From NCBI GenBank assembly GCA_007130865.1, contig SLRR01000014.1, positions 1 to 54,329 on the forward strand: a stretch of 54,329 bases of DNA, read 5' to 3'. The DNA is from Spirochaeta sp. (GTDB lineage: Bacteria; Spirochaetota; Spirochaetia; DSM-27196; Alkalispirochaetaceae). Shown here piece by piece: positions 36,356 to 45,790 of this stretch. Under the pieces are notes generated by a model. That model had not been told where the DNA came from. It saw nothing but the letters and a program-made list of their open reading frames with translations, and searched no databases. Position 1 is the stretch's first letter; the number at the start of each line of letters is the position of its first letter. The position numbers and the translations under genes were made by a program.

Positions 36356-37623
36356 CAATGCAATCACGGTTGAGTGATCTGGGTTTGAACTACCCGACGA
36401 TACTCCTGCCCAAACCCGATCTCGACCTTCAACGCTGGGCGGTGATCGCGTGCGACCAGTTTACCTCCGACCAGGGGTACTGGGAGGCGGTGGAACAGTA
36501 TGTGGGAGACAGCCCCTCCACGCTTCACGTGGTTCTTCCGGAGATCTATCTGGACCAGCGCGACCAGGAGGTGGAAACACGACGAATCCGGACAACCATG
36601 GAAGAATACCTGCAGCAGGACGTCTTCCAGGAGTATTCCGAGTCCGCCGTATTCGTAACGCGCACGCTTTCCGACGGGACGGAGCGTCGCGGCCTCGTCC
36701 TGGCCGTGGACCTGGAGTCCTATGACTATAATCCCGATACGGCGGCGCTCATCCGGGCGAGTGAAGAAACGATTCCCTCCCGCCTCCCGCCGCGAGCGGC
36801 GATCCGGAAGGAAGCACTGTTGGAAACACCTCACGTGCTCGTTCTCTACAATGACCCGGATGATACGGTAACGGGTATCCTTTCCGAAGCGGAAAAGTCG
36901 CTGGACCTGCTCTACGACACGCCGCTCATGATGGACGGCGGTGGTGTGCGGGGACGGCGAGTGCCGCTGGATCACCCCGCGACGGCAAAGATCGTCTCCG
37001 CCCTGGAAGCGCTCCGGGATGGCTCGCTCCTGTTCGCCACGGGCGACGGCAATCACAGCCTGGCGGCTGCAAAAACGGTCTGGCAGGAACGGAAAGCCGC
37101 CGGGGCAGCGGAGAACGACCCCTTTCGCTACTGTCTGGTGGAACTGGTCAACGTGTTCGATCCGGGGCTCCCCTTTCACCCGATACACCGACTCGCCCGT
37201 GGAGCCGAGTCGACGGTCCTGGAACTGCTCGAGGAAAAAGCCGGATCCCTGCTTCAGCCCCTCTCCCGGAGCGAGTTCGTCCGCTCGGAAGAGACGAGTC
37301 ACCCGGGGAAACGGGAGATCGGATTCTATGGGCCCGACTCCGCGGGGAAGATCGCCGTAACGGATAAGACGCTGCTGCCGGTCGCCCTCGTGGACGATGT
37401 TCTATCGGACGCACCCGTGTCGGAGATCGACTACGTGCACGGCTTCGAGGAAGTTTGCCGGGCGGCGGACCGTGTCGGAGGCGCCGCACTGATAGTACCG
37501 GAGTTTGACCGGGACAAGCTTTTCCCCACGGTAGCTACCCGGGGAGCTCTGCCGCGCAAGGCGTTTTCCCTGGGACGAGCCGTGGACAAACGGTATTATC
37601 TGGAGTGTCGGGCCCTGACCTGA
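36352..37623 (+). CDS. DUF1015 family protein
   Basis: 423 residues starting MTMQSRLSDLGLNYPTILLPKPD at ATG 36352, with AGGAGAGG upstream. DUF1015 features: VIACDQFTSDQGYW near residue 30, the His-containing LLFATGDGNHSLAAAK near 225 (GHH/GNH motif of the family), and the C-terminal VDKRYYLECRAL. Function is not established. The start overlaps the U32 stop, so the U32 and DUF1015 proteins are probably made together, at the end of the lon transcription unit. The FtsB-like gene converges and overlaps by 28 bases. Confidence 0.88.
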   Translation: MTMQSRLSDLGLNYPTILLPKPDLDLQRWAVIACDQFTSDQGYWEAVEQYVGDSPSTLHVVLPEIYLDQRDQEVETRRIRTTMEEYLQQDVFQEYSESAVFVTRTLSDGTERRGLVLAVDLESYDYNPDTAALIRASEETIPSRLPPRAAIRKEALLETPHVLVLYNDPDDTVTGILSEAEKSLDLLYDTPLMMDGGGVRGRRVPLDHPATAKIVSALEALRDGSLLFATGDGNHSLAAAKTVWQERKAAGAAENDPFRYCLVELVNVFDPGLPFHPIHRLARGAESTVLELLEEKAGSLLQPLSRSEFVRSEETSHPGKREIGFYGPDSAGKIAVTDKTLLPVALVDDVLSDAPVSEIDYVHGFEEVCRAADRVGGAALIVPEFDRDKLFPTVATRGALPRKAFSLGRAVDKRYYLECRALT

Positions 37624-38129
37624 TCGACTGGTTCGTCCTCCGGTGACGCCGACCGGCCTCGAACCGGACGCTCTCGGTGCTTTGAAGCACCGGTACTGCC
37701 CCGGGTGGTTCGTTGCGACCCGATCAGCTGTACCAGGAGCGTCACCAGGAACACGGTAAACCCCAGGGAGCGGAACAGCGGCCGGTTGTCCCTGATCCGA
37801 GGCATCCTCGAAGGGACCGCTCCCGGCTGGTACCGGTGACGGGGACGGGTCTCGTGGTTTTCAAGGCGTACCACGATCTCTTCCATTCCCACGAGCCCGA
37901 TATCCCGCGCTTCCAGTCGGATCGTCTCGGAATCGGTCGTGAGCAGACGGACCTGCCGTTGCAGGTCCAGGGTCTGTCGCTGAAGAACTTCCAGTTCCTG
38001 CGCCGCTTTTGAACGAAACTCCTCCATTGTACGAAACGCGATCATCCCGTACTGGCCGAAGACCAGCTCGAGCAGGAGATACACACCAAGACCGGCCAGG
38101 GTCGATGTAACAAACCAGGTAGGCTTCAT
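37596..38129 (-). CDS. FtsB/DivIC-like septum formation initiator with extra membrane helix
   Basis: 177 residues. The first 95 match the septum-formation-initiator pattern: a membrane helix (FVTSTLAGLGVYLLLELVFGQYGMI), a leucine-zipper coiled coil (LEVLQRQTLDLQRQVRLLTTD), then ARDIGLVGMEEIVVRLE, where family members have AR..lG.v..gE.v. A divisome role is likely by family. Unlike ordinary FtsB, a second hydrophobic helix (LGFTVFLVTLLVQLIG) and a basic tail follow. The start ATG 38129 has AGAGAAG just upstream. Confidence 0.72.
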   Translation of the reverse strand: MKPTWFVTSTLAGLGVYLLLELVFGQYGMIAFRTMEEFRSKAAQELEVLQRQTLDLQRQVRLLTTDSETIRLEARDIGLVGMEEIVVRLENHETRPRHRYQPGAVPSRMPRIRDNRPLFRSLGFTVFLVTLLVQLIGSQRTTRGSTGASKHRERPVRGRSASPEDEPVDQVRARHSR

Positions 38130-38303: not shown

Positions 38304-40394
38304 ATGGACGAACAAAAGAACCGGGAAAGTCAGGATCAGGAATACGAGCGATACGGTGTATGGGTAAAAGCCGGTCCGGAAGAGGTGCTGGAAGCGGAGG
38401 ACGACTCCGCCGTGACCGATCTGTCCATGGAGGACGAACGCTTCGACGAAGATCTTGGCAGCATGGACGCCCTGGACGACTTCAACAGCGATAACGAAGA
38501 CGACCTGGTTTCACTTGACGATTTCGACATCGAGGAGCCCGCGGAAGACGCGGATCCCTTCTCCACGCTCGTAGGAGATGAAGGGGATGACGAGCTGGAC
38601 CTGGACGCGCTCAGCGAGACTATGGATCAGGGCTTTGAAAGTCTGGAGATGGATGAGATCGATGAGATCAGCCTCGATGACTTTGACGAGGAAGACACCG
38701 GCGAGTCCCTGCCGGAACTGGATATCGAATCCGACGAAAGCGAACACGACTTCACTCCTGAGGATCAGGGTATAGAGATCGCACCGGAGCCTCCCCGCAA
38801 CACGATCAGCGCCGATGAGGAAGAGTTTCTCCGGGAGGATGAGGACGAAGTAACCGCTGATTTGCAAAATGAGGCGGGAAGTGCTATACCATCAACAATG
38901 GACTCACAGGAACGCGAGGCATTTGACCGGATACAGCAGGAGCTGCACGACATAAAGCGCGAACTGGCGGAGCTCAAACAAGTGCTGCGCCAGGGAGCCT
39001 CCGTCCCCGGAGCAGAACGACCGCTCGTGCAGGAAGAACCGGCCGCGGACGAGTTTTATCCGGAGGAAGAAGAGACGGAAACGGTCACCGAGCCTTCGGC
39101 GGGTACGGGGTTCTTCGAGGACGAGGAAGACGAGACGATCGCCCTCACCGGCGACGAGCTTGATAATATCCTGAACACCGCGGAGTTTACCGAGGAAACC
39201 GGCGAGACCGAGGAGCTGGACGACGACTTTGTCATGCCCGAGGAAGAGAGCCTCGGCGAGGTTTCTCTCGACGTGGGCGAACCCGCGGTCGATGACGACT
39301 CGTACGTCGACGAACCGGCACTCCAGGAGGAGGATGAGATCACCCTGGAGGATGAACCGGGCGCTCCCTTTGTCCTGGAAGGCGACGACTCCGCAGTGGA
39401 CGAACTCGCCGACATGGACATTGATCAGGAACTCGCAGGCATCGAGTCCCTCGCGGACGAGACGGAGCCGGACGAGGAAGACCAGCTGGACGAGATCGAG
39501 CTGGACCTTGATTCGCTCGATGACCTGGATGAACCCCTGGAAGAACCGTTTGACCTTGGGGATCCCTCCCGGGAGGAGCCCTCGGACGAGCTGATCATTC
39601 CTCAGGAAGACTCCGAGGAGCAACTGACTGCGTCGCAGGACCACTCCCGGGAGGACCTGCCGGTCGATACAGTTCCCTCCGATGAAGATGAACTGGATCT
39701 CGAACTGGATGACCTGGACGATCTCGATGTTACCAACGAGGACATCGTCACCGAGGGCGAGGATGAAGAAGGCTTCGCCGACTTCGCCGCCGCGGTGGAA
39801 CAGGACCTGGAGATGCCGCTCGAAGGGGACGAAATGGTCCTGGACGAGCAGGAAGACGGGGAGGTGACCCTTGCCGACGACGAGCCGGCGCTGGAGATCC
39901 CCGAGGAACACCGGGAACCGACCGACGAACCCGGTGACTCCGGTCCCGATGAGCTGACGCTGGACGAGGATTTCCAGGCGCAACCGTCGCTCGGTGAAGA
40001 ACCCTCGTTCGGCGACGAGCCCCCCCTGGATGACGATTTCGGCGGCGCCGAGCCTTCCCTGGATGACGATTTCGGCGACGAGCCTTCCCTGGATGACGAT
40101 TTCGGCGACGAGCCGGATCTTGAGGTTCCGGCGGAAGAACCTCCGTCGACGGAAACGCCCGACACCTTTGCCGAGACACCCGTCGAGACGGATGAGCAGA
40201 TTCCGGAAGAGGCTCCCCGGCGTGCTTCGATCGCGGATCTGCCGGACGATCTCAAGCAGGAGATCCGGTCGGTCCTGAGCTATATGGATCAGCTTCTGGA
40301 AGCGCTCCCCGATGACAAGATCGAAGAGTTTGCGCAATCCGAGCATTTTGAGGTTTACAAGCACCTCTTTGAAGAACTCGGACTGGAAACCTGA
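38304..40394 (+). CDS. Highly acidic repeat protein (putative scaffold)
   Basis: 696 residues, dominated by Asp and Glu with Leu/Ile spaced through them (for example DELDLDALSETMDQGFESLEMDE), so mostly disordered. A 30-residue helix (QREAFDRIQQELHDIKRELAEL, about 200-225) breaks it, and a 30-bp DNA repeat encodes EPSLDDDFGD units near residue 580. Only the ends look conserved: the start YERYGVWVKAGPEEV and a folded C-terminus, DDLKQEIRSVLSYMDQLLEALPDDK then EVYKHLFEELGLE. It has no signal peptide. It is first in an operon with a GAF-like and two DUF115 proteins. A docking or localisation role is inference; I do not know the family's function. Confidence 0.85.
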   Translation: MDEQKNRESQDQEYERYGVWVKAGPEEVLEAEDDSAVTDLSMEDERFDEDLGSMDALDDFNSDNEDDLVSLDDFDIEEPAEDADPFSTLVGDEGDDELDLDALSETMDQGFESLEMDEIDEISLDDFDEEDTGESLPELDIESDESEHDFTPEDQGIEIAPEPPRNTISADEEEFLREDEDEVTADLQNEAGSAIPSTMDSQEREAFDRIQQELHDIKRELAELKQVLRQGASVPGAERPLVQEEPAADEFYPEEEETETVTEPSAGTGFFEDEEDETIALTGDELDNILNTAEFTEETGETEELDDDFVMPEEESLGEVSLDVGEPAVDDDSYVDEPALQEEDEITLEDEPGAPFVLEGDDSAVDELADMDIDQELAGIESLADETEPDEEDQLDEIELDLDSLDDLDEPLEEPFDLGDPSREEPSDELIIPQEDSEEQLTASQDHSREDLPVDTVPSDEDELDLELDDLDDLDVTNEDIVTEGEDEEGFADFAAAVEQDLEMPLEGDEMVLDEQEDGEVTLADDEPALEIPEEHREPTDEPGDSGPDELTLDEDFQAQPSLGEEPSFGDEPPLDDDFGGAEPSLDDDFGDEPSLDDDFGDEPDLEVPAEEPPSTETPDTFAETPVETDEQIPEEAPRRASIADLPDDLKQEIRSVLSYMDQLLEALPDDKIEEFAQSEHFEVYKHLFEELGLET
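40018..40113 (+). repeat. 30-bp in-frame tandem repeat in the acidic protein gene
   Basis: About three copies of a 30-bp unit (GAGCCTTCCCTGGATGACGA then TTTCGGCGAC) encode EPSLDDDFGD. The first copy is slightly diverged (PPLDDDFGGA). The close match at DNA level points to recent duplication. Confidence 0.9.
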
Positions 40395-40409
40395 CCGGCG
40401 GGTCCTGCC

Positions 40410-41438
40410 ATGGGACTGTTAGAGCGCTTGACCGCGACCGATCACGACAAAGACTCACCGTTCGCCCGGGTACTGCAGATGCGCGGTCCCGCGTCACCGG
40501 CCGGTGAGGGTCTCTTCTCCTCGGATTCACCGGTTCCCGGGGGCGCCGTCGATACCCGTGCCGCCGTGCGGGCGCTCCTTCGGGAGGTCCACCGTCAGCA
40601 CGAGTTCGGAATTGCCACCCCGTCGCATCTCTTTTCCATTCTGCACCGTCATCTGCACGTAACCAGCGGCGCGATCCTCGTGCGGGAACCGGGGCGTTCC
40701 ACGTACGTCCCCATAGCTGCGGCCGGTATCGATCCCCAAACCCGGTCGCACATGCGGATTCCCCTGGAGACGATGAACCTGATCTGCGCTGATGCGGGAG
40801 CGGTGATCCTCCAGGGTCCGGAACTCGCCGTCCTGGAGCCGTACCTTGCAACGGACGCAGCGGCTCCCCGACCTGCCCGGGTCGCGGTACTGCCCTTTTT
40901 CTACAACCGGGAAAACCTCGCTACTCTTCTGGTGTTTGATTCACCCTTTCTGGATCTCTCCGTGGAAGTGCTGGATGTCCTGCTCGGAGCGTTTTCAGAA
41001 CGCGCCGGCTACCTCCTCTTTGACGGCCGCCAGAAACCGTTCTCGGCGGCGGAAAACGTCACGGTCCATGAAGCGACTGAGCTGGAGACGGTCCTCGCCG
41101 GTCTCTCCTCGGACCCGAGCCCGGGCGACCTGGTGGCGGTGAAAGTCTCCCTGACCCCCCTGCTCCGAGTGATCGAATCGCTGCACAAGCATCTGGACCG
41201 CCGGTACCTGCTGAACGACGTACTCGCCACGTGCGCGCTCCTTACGACGGATCAATACAGCCTCGTGACGCTGGGAGAGGGAGAGTTCGTGCTCCTGGGA
41301 GAGCGGAACCCCCGTCTCGATACGGAGCTGCTGGTACAACTACTGGGAACAACGCTGCAACAGCTCTTCGGCGTCGGTCCCACGATAGCGTTGCAGTTCA
41401 AGTCGCTCGACCCCGACAGTCTTCTCAGTGACCGTTGA
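40410..41438 (+). CDS. Hypothetical protein with GAF-like N-terminal region
   Basis: 342 residues, no signal peptide or membrane helix. Residues about 45-200 have the alternating strand and helix pattern of a GAF domain (LFSILHRHLHVTSGAILVREP; RVAVLPFFYNRENLATLLVFD), and the C-terminal half has a further alpha/beta region with GEGEFVLLGER near 295. I cannot name the family. It starts 16 bases after the acidic protein and overlaps the first DUF115 gene by 11 bases, so it belongs to that operon and probably acts in the same complex. Confidence 0.72.
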   Translation: MGLLERLTATDHDKDSPFARVLQMRGPASPAGEGLFSSDSPVPGGAVDTRAAVRALLREVHRQHEFGIATPSHLFSILHRHLHVTSGAILVREPGRSTYVPIAAAGIDPQTRSHMRIPLETMNLICADAGAVILQGPELAVLEPYLATDAAAPRPARVAVLPFFYNRENLATLLVFDSPFLDLSVEVLDVLLGAFSERAGYLLFDGRQKPFSAAENVTVHEATELETVLAGLSSDPSPGDLVAVKVSLTPLLRVIESLHKHLDRRYLLNDVLATCALLTTDQYSLVTLGEGEFVLLGERNPRLDTELLVQLLGTTLQQLFGVGPTIALQFKSLDPDSLLSDR

Positions 41439-42990
41439 ACGCCGGACCGCCCGCACCGGTGATCCCACAGTGCTCGCGAACGGGCGATTTCTCCATTCGC
41501 GCTACGACCCCCGGCGTGAGGCGCGCCGTTTTACCGACTCCCTTACGCCGGAAAATCCTGAAAGCGTGACGATACTCCTGGGCGACGGTACCGGCGTGGT
41601 CCGGTCCGCCCTGACTGATCGTTTTCCCTCGATGCGGGTGATTTCTGTAGAACCGGTACCACAGGAAGGAGAACCCGCGACCGACCATACCCCGCGGAAC
41701 GCCGATCGACTGGGGGCCCCGCCGGAGGACGCTCCCGAGACAACGGCGGATCGCCTGCACAGCCGGCTTCATCCCCTGGACGCGGGACGGATCCAGGTGC
41801 TCACCTGGAGCGGAGCGCGGACCGCGATTCCCGAGTGGTGTTCCGCCATGGAGACGCTGGTTCTGGAAGTTATGCGCTCGCTTCAGGCGGAACTCGCCAC
41901 GACCGGGTCGTTCGGACGTTTATGGCTGGCCAACGCGGTACGCGGAACGGTCCGGGCCGATCGGCGGGTATCGGTTCGTTTTGAGGGGGACGGTCTGGTG
42001 ACAGCCACGGCGGGTCCCGGGCTTTCGGCGCTGGCCCGGCGCGTTCCACCGGCGGATCGCCCTTCCCTTCCGATAATCGCCGCGGGATCGGCGGTGCACT
42101 GGTTGAACCACCAGGGATTTCACCCCTTCCTGGCCGTCCAGACCGACGGGGGACTATGGGCGCGGCGATATCTCAAGGATATCGAGCTTGCCCGGGCGAT
42201 CGCCCTGCAGCCGCTGCGTGCCGCCGGGGGAAGAGTGACCGCACCGCTCTACGTCCGCACGGGCTGGTTTGGAGAGGTCCTGGCCCCGGACGCGCGGGAG
42301 TGGCCCTTTCTGCGGGAATACCCCACCGTGGGTGCTTCGCTCCTGGATCTGGCTCACCGCTACTGCCCGGACGGTACGCTTGTGGCGAGCGGTCTCGACC
42401 TCTGCACACGGGGGCTTCTGGGTCATAGCTCGCCGCACCGGAACGACCGCTACATCCGGACCCGGATCGCACGGCTTGCTTCCGAAGAGACACTGCGCGC
42501 GTCGCGTGCGGCCTGGGCCGACTCTGCTGCCAGACTGCCCGGGATCGGGGACACTCACTACCCCGGCGGCGCGTGGCAGACACCGGCGCTGGCCGCGTAC
42601 CGCCGTCCCGTCGCAACGGTTGTCCGGGCGCACCGGGAAACCGGTACAACCTGGTTTCTCGATCCTTCACCGGTCTGGAGCCGGGAAGCACCTCTGCCCG
42701 ATACCGCACCGCTTCCGAGGGGACGCTTTCTGAGTACTAACCATACCAGACCGGACAGAAAAAAAAGAATGCGCCACGTGGAGACCACCCTGCGGAAATG
42801 GCAGGAGCAAGTCCGCCGGGGATCGGCGGATCCTGACACAGTTACGGAAGAACTTCGTGACCTCATGCTCCACCTGGCGCCCGTGGAGACGCTGCAGTGG
42901 TATCGGGGGACCCTGGCGACGGACCGGCTCCGTTCCCGGGTTCTTTACGGACTCGAGGGGCTGTCGCAGCTCCTGGAGCGATTGGGATGA
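41428..42990 (+). CDS. Divergent DUF115/Maf-like protein
   Basis: 520 residues. It aligns in outline with the next gene: GRFLHSRYDPRREARRF matches GRALHSRYNPDREARR, and VTILLGDGTGVVRSAL matches VVLLGLGAGFVLRRL, followed by a second Rossmann-like part (TATAGPGLSALARRV; FLAVQTDGGLWARRYL). It is therefore a paralogue of the DUF115, MptE-like / motility-associated factor family. Its nucleotide-binding loops are weaker: the Asp-Pro of the family (VVVLDPQ in the neighbour) reads AVQTDGG. It may have become a non-catalytic partner. It overlaps both neighbours (ATGA with the next). Confidence 0.72.
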   Translation: MTVERRTARTGDPTVLANGRFLHSRYDPRREARRFTDSLTPENPESVTILLGDGTGVVRSALTDRFPSMRVISVEPVPQEGEPATDHTPRNADRLGAPPEDAPETTADRLHSRLHPLDAGRIQVLTWSGARTAIPEWCSAMETLVLEVMRSLQAELATTGSFGRLWLANAVRGTVRADRRVSVRFEGDGLVTATAGPGLSALARRVPPADRPSLPIIAAGSAVHWLNHQGFHPFLAVQTDGGLWARRYLKDIELARAIALQPLRAAGGRVTAPLYVRTGWFGEVLAPDAREWPFLREYPTVGASLLDLAHRYCPDGTLVASGLDLCTRGLLGHSSPHRNDRYIRTRIARLASEETLRASRAAWADSAARLPGIGDTHYPGGAWQTPALAAYRRPVATVVRAHRETGTTWFLDPSPVWSREAPLPDTAPLPRGRFLSTNHTRPDRKKRMRHVETTLRKWQEQVRRGSADPDTVTEELRDLMLHLAPVETLQWYRGTLATDRLRSRVLYGLEGLSQLLERLG

Positions 42991-44621
42991 ACGAAACGCT
43001 CCAAACAAACCTGGACGCCCTGGACCGGGCGTATCCGGAGTGCGCGCAGAACGTTCGCCGGGCAGTACCGTCCCCGCGTCTCACGCCGGTAACGACCCGG
43101 GACGGGCAGATCAGCCTGGAGATACAGGGCGGGAGAGCACTGCACTCCCGGTACAACCCCGACCGGGAAGCCCGTCGTTTACTGCAGACTGCGATCTCCG
43201 ACCGCGTGGCGACTGTGGTGCTCCTCGGGCTGGGAGCCGGTTTTGTACTGAGACGTCTCCTGTTGGACTACCCCGCCGTGATGGTGGTGGTGGTGGAGCG
43301 TTCCTGGTCGACGATCCGTACGATACTCGCCACGATCAACCTGGCGGAGGACCTCACCGGCGAGCGTCTGGTACTTACGGTGGATCCGATCGACCTGCAA
43401 CGTCGGTTGCAGTCATACCACCAGCCCCTGATACGGCCCGGGCTGGTGGTGCTTCCCCTGGTTCCGTGGACGGAGGACAAAGAAAACCGGCAACATTTCC
43501 AGGATTGTCGCGCCGCGGTGGAGGTGCTTCTCCGGACGGAGGAACGGGAGCGCTTCACGATCGCACGGTTCGGTTTGCGCTGGCTCGTCCACTCGATCCA
43601 CAACAGCCGCTACATGACGGACCGGGCGACCACCCGGGAGACGAAGGACCGGTTGTGCGAACGGATCGCCACAAAGCGCGTCACGGTGGTCGCCGCCGGT
43701 CCGGGGCTGGATCAATTCCTTGAGAGGCGCCGCGTCGCCCCGGGGGACCTGCTGGTTTCCGTAGATACCGCGCTCCCGGCGCTCCTCCAGCGAGGTATCA
43801 CACCGGACGCAGTGGTAGTGCTGGACCCCCAGGCGTGGAGCGTTCTGCATCTGCGCGGATCCGTACCGGAGAGGACGATCTTGCTCCTGGACGGCGGTGT
43901 GGTCCCCGCGGTGGCACGGCAGGTACCGGCCGGGTCGGTCCTGTGGTTCTTCGGATCCCACCCGCTGCACCAGTTGCTGTACCTCGCGGGGGCGCCGCTC
44001 CACATCGCTCCGGGTTCGCCCGAGTCGGTTACGGAAGCAGCTGTGCTCCTGGTCCGCGCCGCCGGAGCGGCCGAAGTGACCGTGGCAGGCGCCGACGGCG
44101 GATACCCGCGCGGCACGACTTACGCCGCCGGCACGTACCATCACACAGTGGCCAACCGCGGCGCGTACCGTCTCCTGCCGGAATCACACTTTTTTGCCCG
44201 CACCGTGTACCCTCACACCCGCATCCACGATGGAGAACACCGCGCCTCGGCGGAAGGCCCGTTCTTTTCCACCGGGGATATGTCCAACCGGACGGAGCGG
44301 ATCCGGTTGGCAAGAGAAACAGCGGTCTCCCCGTTGGAGACACACCCGGGAGACCGGGAGTTCGCGCCGTCACGGTTCTGGGCCGACCACGCCGGGGAGC
44401 TCGCCGGGACGATCGATCGTCTGCGCGCCCTGGGCGGTCCCGGTTCAACACCTGTTCCTTCGATAATGCGGGCCCTGGGACCGCATGGTATAGCCCATCT
44501 ACCGGTATTCGGGCGGCTGAACCGCGATGAGTTCTCCCCGGATACACTCATCCCGCGTCTGATAGATACGTTCAGAACGGTTCAGGGTTTCATTTTGGCC
44601 GAAAATCGCCGATACTCCTAG
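42987..44621 (+). CDS. DUF115 / motility-associated factor glycosyltransferase-like protein
   Basis: 544 residues from ATG 42987. The DUF115 features are clear: LHSRYNPDREARR, LLGLGAGFVLRRLL, VTVVAAGPGLDQFLERRR, LVSVDTALPALLQRGI and PDAVVVLDPQ, then AGADGGYPRGTTYAAGT. In flagellated bacteria these Maf proteins are associated with flagellin glycosylation, and the family also includes MptE-like pterin diphosphokinases; which applies here is not decided by sequence. It follows its divergent paralogue with an ATGA overlap and is followed after five bases by the membrane protein. Confidence 0.85.
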   Translation: MNETLQTNLDALDRAYPECAQNVRRAVPSPRLTPVTTRDGQISLEIQGGRALHSRYNPDREARRLLQTAISDRVATVVLLGLGAGFVLRRLLLDYPAVMVVVVERSWSTIRTILATINLAEDLTGERLVLTVDPIDLQRRLQSYHQPLIRPGLVVLPLVPWTEDKENRQHFQDCRAAVEVLLRTEERERFTIARFGLRWLVHSIHNSRYMTDRATTRETKDRLCERIATKRVTVVAAGPGLDQFLERRRVAPGDLLVSVDTALPALLQRGITPDAVVVLDPQAWSVLHLRGSVPERTILLLDGGVVPAVARQVPAGSVLWFFGSHPLHQLLYLAGAPLHIAPGSPESVTEAAVLLVRAAGAAEVTVAGADGGYPRGTTYAAGTYHHTVANRGAYRLLPESHFFARTVYPHTRIHDGEHRASAEGPFFSTGDMSNRTERIRLARETAVSPLETHPGDREFAPSRFWADHAGELAGTIDRLRALGGPGSTPVPSIMRALGPHGIAHLPVFGRLNRDEFSPDTLIPRLIDTFRTVQGFILAENRRYS

Positions 44622-44626
44622 ACGAG

Positions 44627-45790
44627 ATGAAGCGTCGCCTGCTGTTACGCGTCTATATCGTCGCGGTAGTTCTGGCTTTCCTCGCGATCGCGGTATCCGT
44701 CGTATGGCGCGCCGGTACAACCCGGGCGTTCCAGTACCAGCAGGCCGCGGAGAGCTTCCGCGAACTTTCCCGGGAAACCGCCGGTCTCTGGCAGACGGTC
44801 CCCCTGGATAAGGCGGCACAGACGCTGGCGCGGCGGATCGTCGTGCCCGGAAAACCACGGCCGGTAATGGTGGGCGTTTCCGCGTTTGACACCGGATTCG
44901 ACTATCTCTGGGCCACGGACAATCGATTTGTCCCGGCGGGATTCGATCCGAAATACGCCGAGGGCTTTCCCGAGCACGTAGGGACCTGGAACCACGCACG
45001 GTTTGTCCGTACCTTTGAGGTGCCCCACGGCGAACACCGCATGATGACCGCCCTCTACCCTCTTCTCCCACGGTCTTCACTATACGAGATACTCCGGGAT
45101 GCGCTGTACGCCGCCCTGGTCGTGCTGGTTGTCACGATCCTCGTAGCGCTGGTGGCGCTCCTCAAGGGGCGCACCGCCGCGGAAGCAGGGCCGTTACCGG
45201 AGCGAGGACCTGCTCCGGAACCGATCATCCCGCAGAATCAGCCCTCGGCGCGGCGCGCTACACCCGCCACACCCGCCACACCCGCCACACCCGACGCCGG
45301 TGGTTCCGCGAAGATCCAACCGGAGGAACGGCTGCGGGAGCGGCTCGATGCCGAGCTGGAGCGAGCCGGCTTCTCCGAACAGGACCTGTCCGTAGCGATT
45401 ATCGAGTTCACCGGGGACGCCCGGGACGAAGCGATCTATCGCGAACAATGTGAGGCGGTACGATCGTTTTTCGTGTTCAAGGATCTCTGCTTTGAGACCG
45501 AGGGTAACGCCCTGGTCGTACTCATACCGAACTCGACCCTCTCGGAAGCGCTGGGGCTGATGGAACGGTTTCAACGTCACTTCTGGGAGCAGCGCGTACT
45601 CTGGAACCGTGAACAGGCGGACTTCCACGCGGGCGTTTCCGCCCGAGCCGCCCGCCTGGTGGACGCCGATCGGATTCTCGGGGAGTGCCGCGCCGCATTG
45701 CGGCAGAGCCGGAATACCCCCGGACGAATCGTGGGGTTCCAGCCGGATCCGCAGAAGTACCGGGAGTTCCTCACCCACCGTCCGGCCTAG
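44627..45790 (+). CDS. Membrane protein with degenerate GGDEF-like domain
   Basis: 387 residues. A first membrane helix (9-28), about 120 periplasmic residues, a second helix (about 157-178, YAALVVLVVTILVALVALL), a linker containing ATPATPATP, then a cytoplasmic domain (about 230-387). That domain has the order of a GGDEF domain (LSVAIIEFTGDARDEAIY; AVRSFFVFKDLCF; GNALVVLIPN; FHAGVSARAARLVDADRILGECRAAL). The active-site loop reads TEGNALVVLIP instead of GGDEFVVLLP, so it should not make cyclic di-GMP. It closes the DUF115 operon, and its end overlaps the convergent rnz gene by 20 bases. Confidence 0.72.
   Translation: MKRRLLLRVYIVAVVLAFLAIAVSVVWRAGTTRAFQYQQAAESFRELSRETAGLWQTVPLDKAAQTLARRIVVPGKPRPVMVGVSAFDTGFDYLWATDNRFVPAGFDPKYAEGFPEHVGTWNHARFVRTFEVPHGEHRMMTALYPLLPRSSLYEILRDALYAALVVLVVTILVALVALLKGRTAAEAGPLPERGPAPEPIIPQNQPSARRATPATPATPATPDAGGSAKIQPEERLRERLDAELERAGFSEQDLSVAIIEFTGDARDEAIYREQCEAVRSFFVFKDLCFETEGNALVVLIPNSTLSEALGLMERFQRHFWEQRVLWNREQADFHAGVSARAARLVDADRILGECRAALRQSRNTPGRIVGFQPDPQKYREFLTHRPA

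Follow-up and report, generated by a model that had tools for sequence, protein, structure and literature searches.

The window considered here is a stretch of 54,329 nucleotides from Spirochaeta sp. (Spirochaetota; Alkalispirochaetaceae), comprising positions 1 to 54,329 of contig SLRR01000014.1 in GenBank assembly GCA_007130865.1, a genome of 3.73 Mb in 303 contigs. Five open reading frames (ORFs) are packed end to end on its plus strand, with spacings of +15 to −11 bases, and encode proteins of 696, 342, 520, 544 and 387 amino acids. The first (38304..40394) specifies an acidic low-complexity, scaffold-like protein, here called ACID, which has an orthologue at the matching place in relatives; the second (40410..41438) a PelD-like protein in which a GAF domain is combined with a degenerate GGDEF domain; the third (41428..42990) and fourth (42987..44621) the tandem Maf/MptE-like paralogues DUF115A and DUF115B; and the fifth (44627..45790) a membrane protein with a degenerate GGDEF domain. 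An earlier interpretation made from the sequence alone (the sequence-only reading) described five plus-strand genes that overlap or lie at most 16 bases apart, and no flagellar gene among them. Both statements were borne out, and flagellar genes were found neither in the operon nor among the neighbors examined. For DUF115B, the ATG at 42987 is favored as start codon over a GTG at 42897, and it overlaps the stop codon of DUF115A in four bases (ATGA); the two genes overlap by 4 bases in many relatives. Consensus scans of the region for promoters and terminators yielded nothing above shuffled sequences.

Conserved Islands in the ACID Protein

Asp and Glu make up 38% of the window copy of ACID, and its low-complexity chain is presumably disordered. 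Three islands are conserved. Island 1, YGVWVKAGPEEV, lies near the N-terminus (38352..38387), conforms to the near-invariant consensus YGVWVKxGPEDV and is present in 62 of the 66 listed ACID sequences (alignment A2). Island 2, DEEDETIALTGDELDNILNTAEFTEETGE (39120..39206), is a central motif whose near-invariant core is written IALTGDELDNIL / DETIALTGDELDNILNTA; it is present in 60 of the 66 and occurs only once in the source genome. Island 3 is a C-terminal domain of 55 amino acids (40233..40388) with a mean column identity of 77% in alignment A1. This domain is spread over most of the phylum, being found in 91 of 120 phylum genomes and in 122 of 199 genomes of the class that are at least 90% complete, a sample in which absence depends on the completeness of the assembly.

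The length of ACID ranges from 500 to 1361 amino acids among relatives, and its share of Asp and Glu drops to 19% in a genome the size of that of Treponema pallidum; selection therefore appears to keep the islands rather than the charge. The Asp/Glu-rich scaffold of the sequence-only reading is thus retained as a scaffold-like acidic protein, but with the islands, not the acidity, as its conserved feature. ACID matches no Pfam entry over the cut-off, and sequence comparison of its C-terminal domain with known families and structures gave nothing significant. A phylum-wide protein domain without a Pfam match over the cut-off is thereby brought to light.

In some other classes of the phylum the central motif is repeated within ACID, and a scan of these relatives gave 29 matches in 17 proteins versus 0.15 in shuffled sequences. 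To judge from its sequence, the repeated motif resembles a multivalent docking motif. At two loci from other classes (L184 and L185), ACID comes directly after the F1 ATP synthase genes and the motif is repeated, with eight strict copies in L185. A likeness to the CheY-binding peptide of FliM, which in the source genome starts MNEVLSQDEIDQLL, was considered for the central motif. The two are alike by eye only, and the motif profile fails to rank FliM above hundreds of unrelated ORFs, so that the likeness is kept as a lead. The polar hub proteins FimV and HubP have a long acidic low-complexity cytoplasmic chain and a conserved C-terminal domain; the layout of the ACID chain is alike, which, in a comparison by description only, is likewise a lead.

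The DUF115 Pair as Putative Transferases

DUF115B lies over the cut-off of the Pfam family PF01973 (MptE-like; 61.1 versus 34.6 bits), and DUF115A lies under it (13.8 versus 34.6 bits). Profiles of the two families, built from named relatives, both match Maf of Magnetospirillum AMB-1 (5MU5), with E = 1.2e-19 for DUF115B (profile A5) and E = 2.3e-9 for DUF115A (profile A6). Because its Pfam score is below the cut-off and yet its profile is homologous to 5MU5, DUF115A is regarded as a diverged relative rather than a member of the Pfam family. These matches uphold the proposal of two adjacent DUF115/Maf-like paralogues forming a transferase pair. The likeness to Maf, which consists of PF01973 and PF20157, comprises the central domain shared with both proteins, the GPSL motif and a NeuB pathway in the genome. 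The pair differs from Maf in being two diverged tandem paralogues that are located away from flagellar genes and share an operon with an acidic scaffold and proteins of the pseudo-GGDEF type. The score of DUF115B for the Maf N-terminal domain PF20157 is just under the Pfam cut-off (20.7 versus 23.5).

The sialyltransferase CstII of Campylobacter (family GT42) provides a further likeness. In a HMMER comparison with CstII chains, GPSL and a G-x-D-F-x-Y...Y segment of DUF115B are aligned, although the overall match is weak (E = 0.01-0.03). Within residues 368-384 of DUF115B, GADGGYPRGTTYAAGTY (44088..44138), Tyr373 and Tyr379 correspond to CstII Tyr156 and Tyr162, which stabilize the leaving nucleotide. 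Tyr379 is present in 32 of 32 DUF115B sequences, and position 373 holds Tyr in 28 of them and Phe in the other 4. The catalytic His188 of CstII falls outside the aligned segment and its counterpart was not located. DUF115A is without the tyrosine pair and has its own, equally invariant set of residues (S221, D240, G322, D324 and H333), which suggests that it is conserved for another reason than DUF115B. On these sequence features, DUF115B is likely a nonulosonic-acid transferase.

The Pfam name and a match of both profiles to archaeal MptE (8sd5; E = 7e-8 for DUF115B) point instead to pterin or nucleotide pyrophosphokinases like MptE. Such a function, with no glycosyl transfer by either protein, is very improbable, because the match of DUF115B to Maf is much stronger, the tyrosine pair is of the sialyltransferase kind and the presence of DUF115 tracks that of NeuB, as described below.

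Two further DUF115 paralogues, each with an envelope partner of its own, are encoded in the source genome, on contigs C2 and C30 (L064:8254-11978; L065:8646-11961). One of these genes overlaps a gene for a penicillin-binding protein with PASTA domains, with LepB- and SecA-like genes nearby, and the other overlaps a gene for a SurA-like peptidyl-prolyl isomerase.

Two Proteins with Degenerate GGDEF Domains

The 342-residue protein, whose N-terminus reads MGLLERL, has no Pfam match, and its AlphaFold2 model (mean predicted local distance difference test score, pLDDT, 88.3) consists of a GAF domain followed by a GGDEF-like domain. The top structure matches of the model are GAF structures (Z-score 14.1 to 3ci6 over 160 residues), and Foldseek matches of the second domain include 4zmu and PelD (4etz). 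Describing the protein as GAF-like was thus correct for its fold and incomplete, since a second, degenerate GGDEF domain is present. The family profile matches PelD, the degenerate-GGDEF receptor for cyclic diguanylate in the Pel system, with E = 4e-4; in both proteins a GAF domain precedes a degenerate GGDEF domain, and both are encoded with glycosyltransferase genes. Unlike PelD, however, the GAF protein has no membrane segment, and the RxxD site for cyclic diguanylate (the inhibitory or I site, RGLD in PelD) is not kept, the aligned profile residues being neither Arg nor Asp; the match itself amounts only to the E-value given. The GG(D/E)EF motif is found in none of the 46 family members. 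In many Treponema the gene is reduced to about 150 amino acids, with the MGLL start retained.

In the AlphaFold2 model of the 387-residue membrane protein (pLDDT 85), two long hydrophobic helices flank a small domain and are followed by a degenerate GGDEF domain, for which the Pfam match is weak (1e-4) and the structural match to the GGDEF domain of PleD extends over 148 residues with a Z-score of 19.9. The catalytic GG(D/E)EF motif occurs in 0 of 30 members of this family. The RxxD site is likewise not kept: most members have Thr, Ala, Pro or Leu in place of the Arg, and 26 of the 30 have the Asp. Judged by the catalytic motif, neither GGDEF-like protein would qualify as a diguanylate cyclase. 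The description of the last gene product as a two-helix protein with a non-catalytic GGDEF fold agrees with these results, and the view of it as a sensor-like membrane protein is supported as well.

Conservation of Gene Order

Gene order was compared in about 30 mapped relatives, in 80 named loci among the matches listed in a genome scan, all of which bear spirochaete titles, and in further genomes of the class. Among the listed matches of this one scan the set is confined to spirochaetes, as the sequence-only reading had proposed. The order in which a divergent DivIC/FtsB-like gene is followed by ACID, the GAF protein, DUF115A, DUF115B and the membrane GGDEF protein recurs in tens of genomes across the class Spirochaetia, beyond what chance would give, and the five genes have stayed neighbors for a very long time. 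When only named loci with enough sequence to hold the gene in question (loci with room) are counted, DUF115A is present in 62 of 64, DUF115B in 52 of 54 and the membrane GGDEF gene in 42 of 50. The DivIC/FtsB-like gene, which in the window lies on the minus strand (37596..38129; PF04977, E = 2e-9), is a conserved neighbor outside the five-gene set and stands beside ACID in 47 of 59 such loci. The idea of one conserved spirochaete gene set accordingly survived this neighborhood comparison, the genes being neither scattered nor unlinked in relatives.

All five genes are kept even in genome G111, which has 1,139,633 bases, a size like that of the T. pallidum genome. Its locus is neighbored by a tro-type operon and a gene resembling that of a 15-kDa lipoprotein, features suggestive of a T. 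pallidum-like organism. The first annotation of T. pallidum had TP0172/TP0173 and TP0174-TP0176 as split genes, which were subsequently fused (PMC3265458). By position, the GGDEF and DUF115B genes of G111 probably correspond to TP0172-TP0173 and TP0174-TP0176, respectively, and the split annotation probably hid these genes. TP0183, which two-hybrid data have tied to DNA metabolism (PMC2386257), was considered as one of the five and set aside; by position, it more likely corresponds to a neighboring gene of 308 amino acids.

The members of the set, whose order is kept across the class, are not inseparable. Two genomes from family f17 retain only ACID and the GGDEF gene at the locus; the GAF, DUF115A and DUF115B genes are missing, and no DUF115 was detected anywhere in these genomes. 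Elsewhere in the phylum, the gene after ACID often encodes a GAF-GGDEF protein, and in several classes no transferase accompanies the two; in the Leptospira-like families examined ACID lies beside F1 ATPase genes, and in a few families one or two DUF115 genes come after it (L175, L176, L180 and L194). These part-wise losses and the loci of other classes suggest that ACID and a GAF/GGDEF protein form the widest core, with the DUF115 pair as class-wide enzyme cargo.

The same loci invite the explanation that ACID and the pseudo-GGDEF proteins constitute a signaling or polar-localization complex that serves mainly some purpose other than glycosylation and for which the DUF115 pair is a client in one class. 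The repetition of the docking-like motif, the pairing of ACID with a GAF-GGDEF protein where no DUF115 gene adjoins and the ACID-GGDEF loci of family f17 would all fit such a complex. Within the class, however, almost every locus with room has the DUF115 pair, and in G129 (f19-g27), from a lineage without DUF115, ACID has decayed to a remnant of 92 amino acids that comprises the N-terminal motif and the start of the C-terminal domain. This explanation is considered improbable.

Co-occurrence with NeuB and FlhA

In the 199 class genomes, the ACID C-terminal domain was found in 122, FlhA in 162 and PF01973 in 122. Co-occurrence was counted per genome, ignoring kinship, and DUF115 in these counts denotes any PF01973 protein rather than DUF115A or DUF115B specifically. 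The best NeuB scores are bimodal (E below 1e-47 or above 1e-14), and the cut for a strong NeuB, 1e-40, was set after this had been seen; the source genome has a NeuB with E = 6.5e-74. The presence or absence of PF01973 coincides with that of strong NeuB in 194 of the 199 genomes, 120 having both, 74 neither and 5 being discordant. Among FlhA-bearing genomes, 118 have DUF115 and NeuB, 2 have DUF115 only, none has NeuB only and 42 have neither. On a quick rpoB tree of sampled genomes, DUF115 needs about six changes, of which starred branches force at least three, and the DUF115 and NeuB states of the sampled genomes agree with each other. The genomes of f19-g27, f26 and f17 and most of the FlhA-lacking clade have neither DUF115 nor strong NeuB, as do the six genomes that have ACID without DUF115. 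The association supports the use of nonulosonates by DUF115 proteins, and the counts do not single out DUF115A and DUF115B from the other paralogues.

This association is stronger than that of ACID with FlhA. ACID was found with FlhA in 122 genomes and without it in none, and 40 FlhA-bearing genomes are without ACID, mostly in family f26 (probably Borreliaceae). The sampled FlhA-lacking families f10, f11, f16 and f24 form one clade on the rpoB tree (support 99/98), so that the link between ACID and FlhA reflects a single loss event. It was consequently dropped as strong evidence; a tracking of flagella is seen in the counts but, as one clade-level loss, is weak evidence. Unlike most of this clade, the genomes G127 and G215 of its family f16 each possess a strong NeuB gene together with a single DUF115 gene, and non-flagellar nonulosonate transfer is possible in them.

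A Possible Scaffolded Glycosylation Module

The reading that is favored here, at slightly under an even chance, is that the operon encodes a scaffolded module for protein glycosylation with nonulosonic acid at the cytoplasmic face of the inner membrane, and that flagellin is its likeliest acceptor. The homologies and folds, the lost GGDEF motifs, the gene order and the co-occurrence with NeuB are the observations from which it proceeds. DUF115B, as a Maf/GT42-type enzyme, would move a nonulosonic (sialic-acid-like) sugar from a cytidine monophosphate (CMP) donor to an acceptor protein within the cytoplasm, and DUF115A would be a diverged partner that probably binds the acceptor or the donor and performs no transfer itself. 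The two pseudo-GGDEF proteins, the one with a GAF domain and the one in the membrane, may be relays without enzymatic activity that position or gate the transferases, somewhat like the degenerate GGDEF receptor PelD in its service to the Pel glycosyltransferase complex; one of the two would read the periplasm. ACID would hold the physical complex together as a flexible tether, each of its three islands docking a partner. The most likely acceptor, FlaB, is a flagellin and would receive the sugar ahead of its export.

Among acceptors, flagellin has the best support, since FlaB of Treponema denticola carries an essential glycan of 450.2 Da (PMC9481697) and a contact between the sheath and the glycans of FlaB1 has been proposed in Leptospira (PMC13144727). 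Flagellin glycosylation is needed for filament assembly in T. denticola and is proposed to keep the sheath attached to the core in Leptospira. Several points weigh against the favored reading. Flagellin might instead be modified by either of the other two DUF115 paralogues, beside the PASTA penicillin-binding protein and the SurA-like chaperone; any DUF115 enters the NeuB count; no flagellar gene lies inside the operon; the flagellum correlation is one loss event; and the CstII matches are weak by E-value. In family f17, moreover, ACID and the GGDEF gene persist where DUF115 is absent, so the two have a role beyond it.

The same glycosylation module might instead modify an envelope protein, a lipid or a cell-wall-associated target and be tied to cell division or shape. 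The divergent DivIC neighbor and the location of the other paralogues would suit such an acceptor, as would the two FlhA-lacking genomes with DUF115 and NeuB, and some lineages of the FlhA-lacking clade may have lost the helical shape as well. ACID never occurs without FlhA in the 199 genomes, however, and the only spirochaete glycan found with a reported essential role sits on FlaB (PMC9481697); a non-flagellin acceptor is rather unlikely.

A wider version of the favored glycosylation module, possible though doubtful, is a phylum-wide hub in which multivalent, disordered ACID and the dead GGDEF proteins would sense the state of the envelope via the membrane protein and control nonulosonate transfer onto an exported protein, probably flagellin. 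If so, spirochaetes would have a glycosylation system centered on a scaffold rather than on a single Maf enzyme. The components are of known kinds, from the Maf/MptE-like, GAF and GGDEF-fold families. In the searchable literature, outside which most subscription journals lie, no description of the assembled operon, the ACID scaffold or its phylum-wide C-terminal domain was found, nor any named spirochaete flagellin transferase or biochemical work on these proteins. The operon offers a specific candidate transferase pair together with its conserved partners, a set that even a T. pallidum-type genome of 1.14 Mb retains. Overall, the conserved set, the transferase pair and the sensor-like and scaffold-like proteins of the sequence-only reading stand, but the make-up of the GAF protein, the weight given to acidity, the inseparability of the members and the relation to flagella had to be corrected.

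Neighboring Genes

In many relatives, a Memo-like gene (AmmeMemoRadiSam B-like, by eye) lies antisense between the DUF115B and GGDEF genes (L062:10305-11153); it is absent in the window. A metallo-beta-lactamase gene comes directly after the operon in the window, and in many relatives the two are separated by a cluster of GldA/GldG-like ABC transporter genes (e.g., L051:11762-15980).

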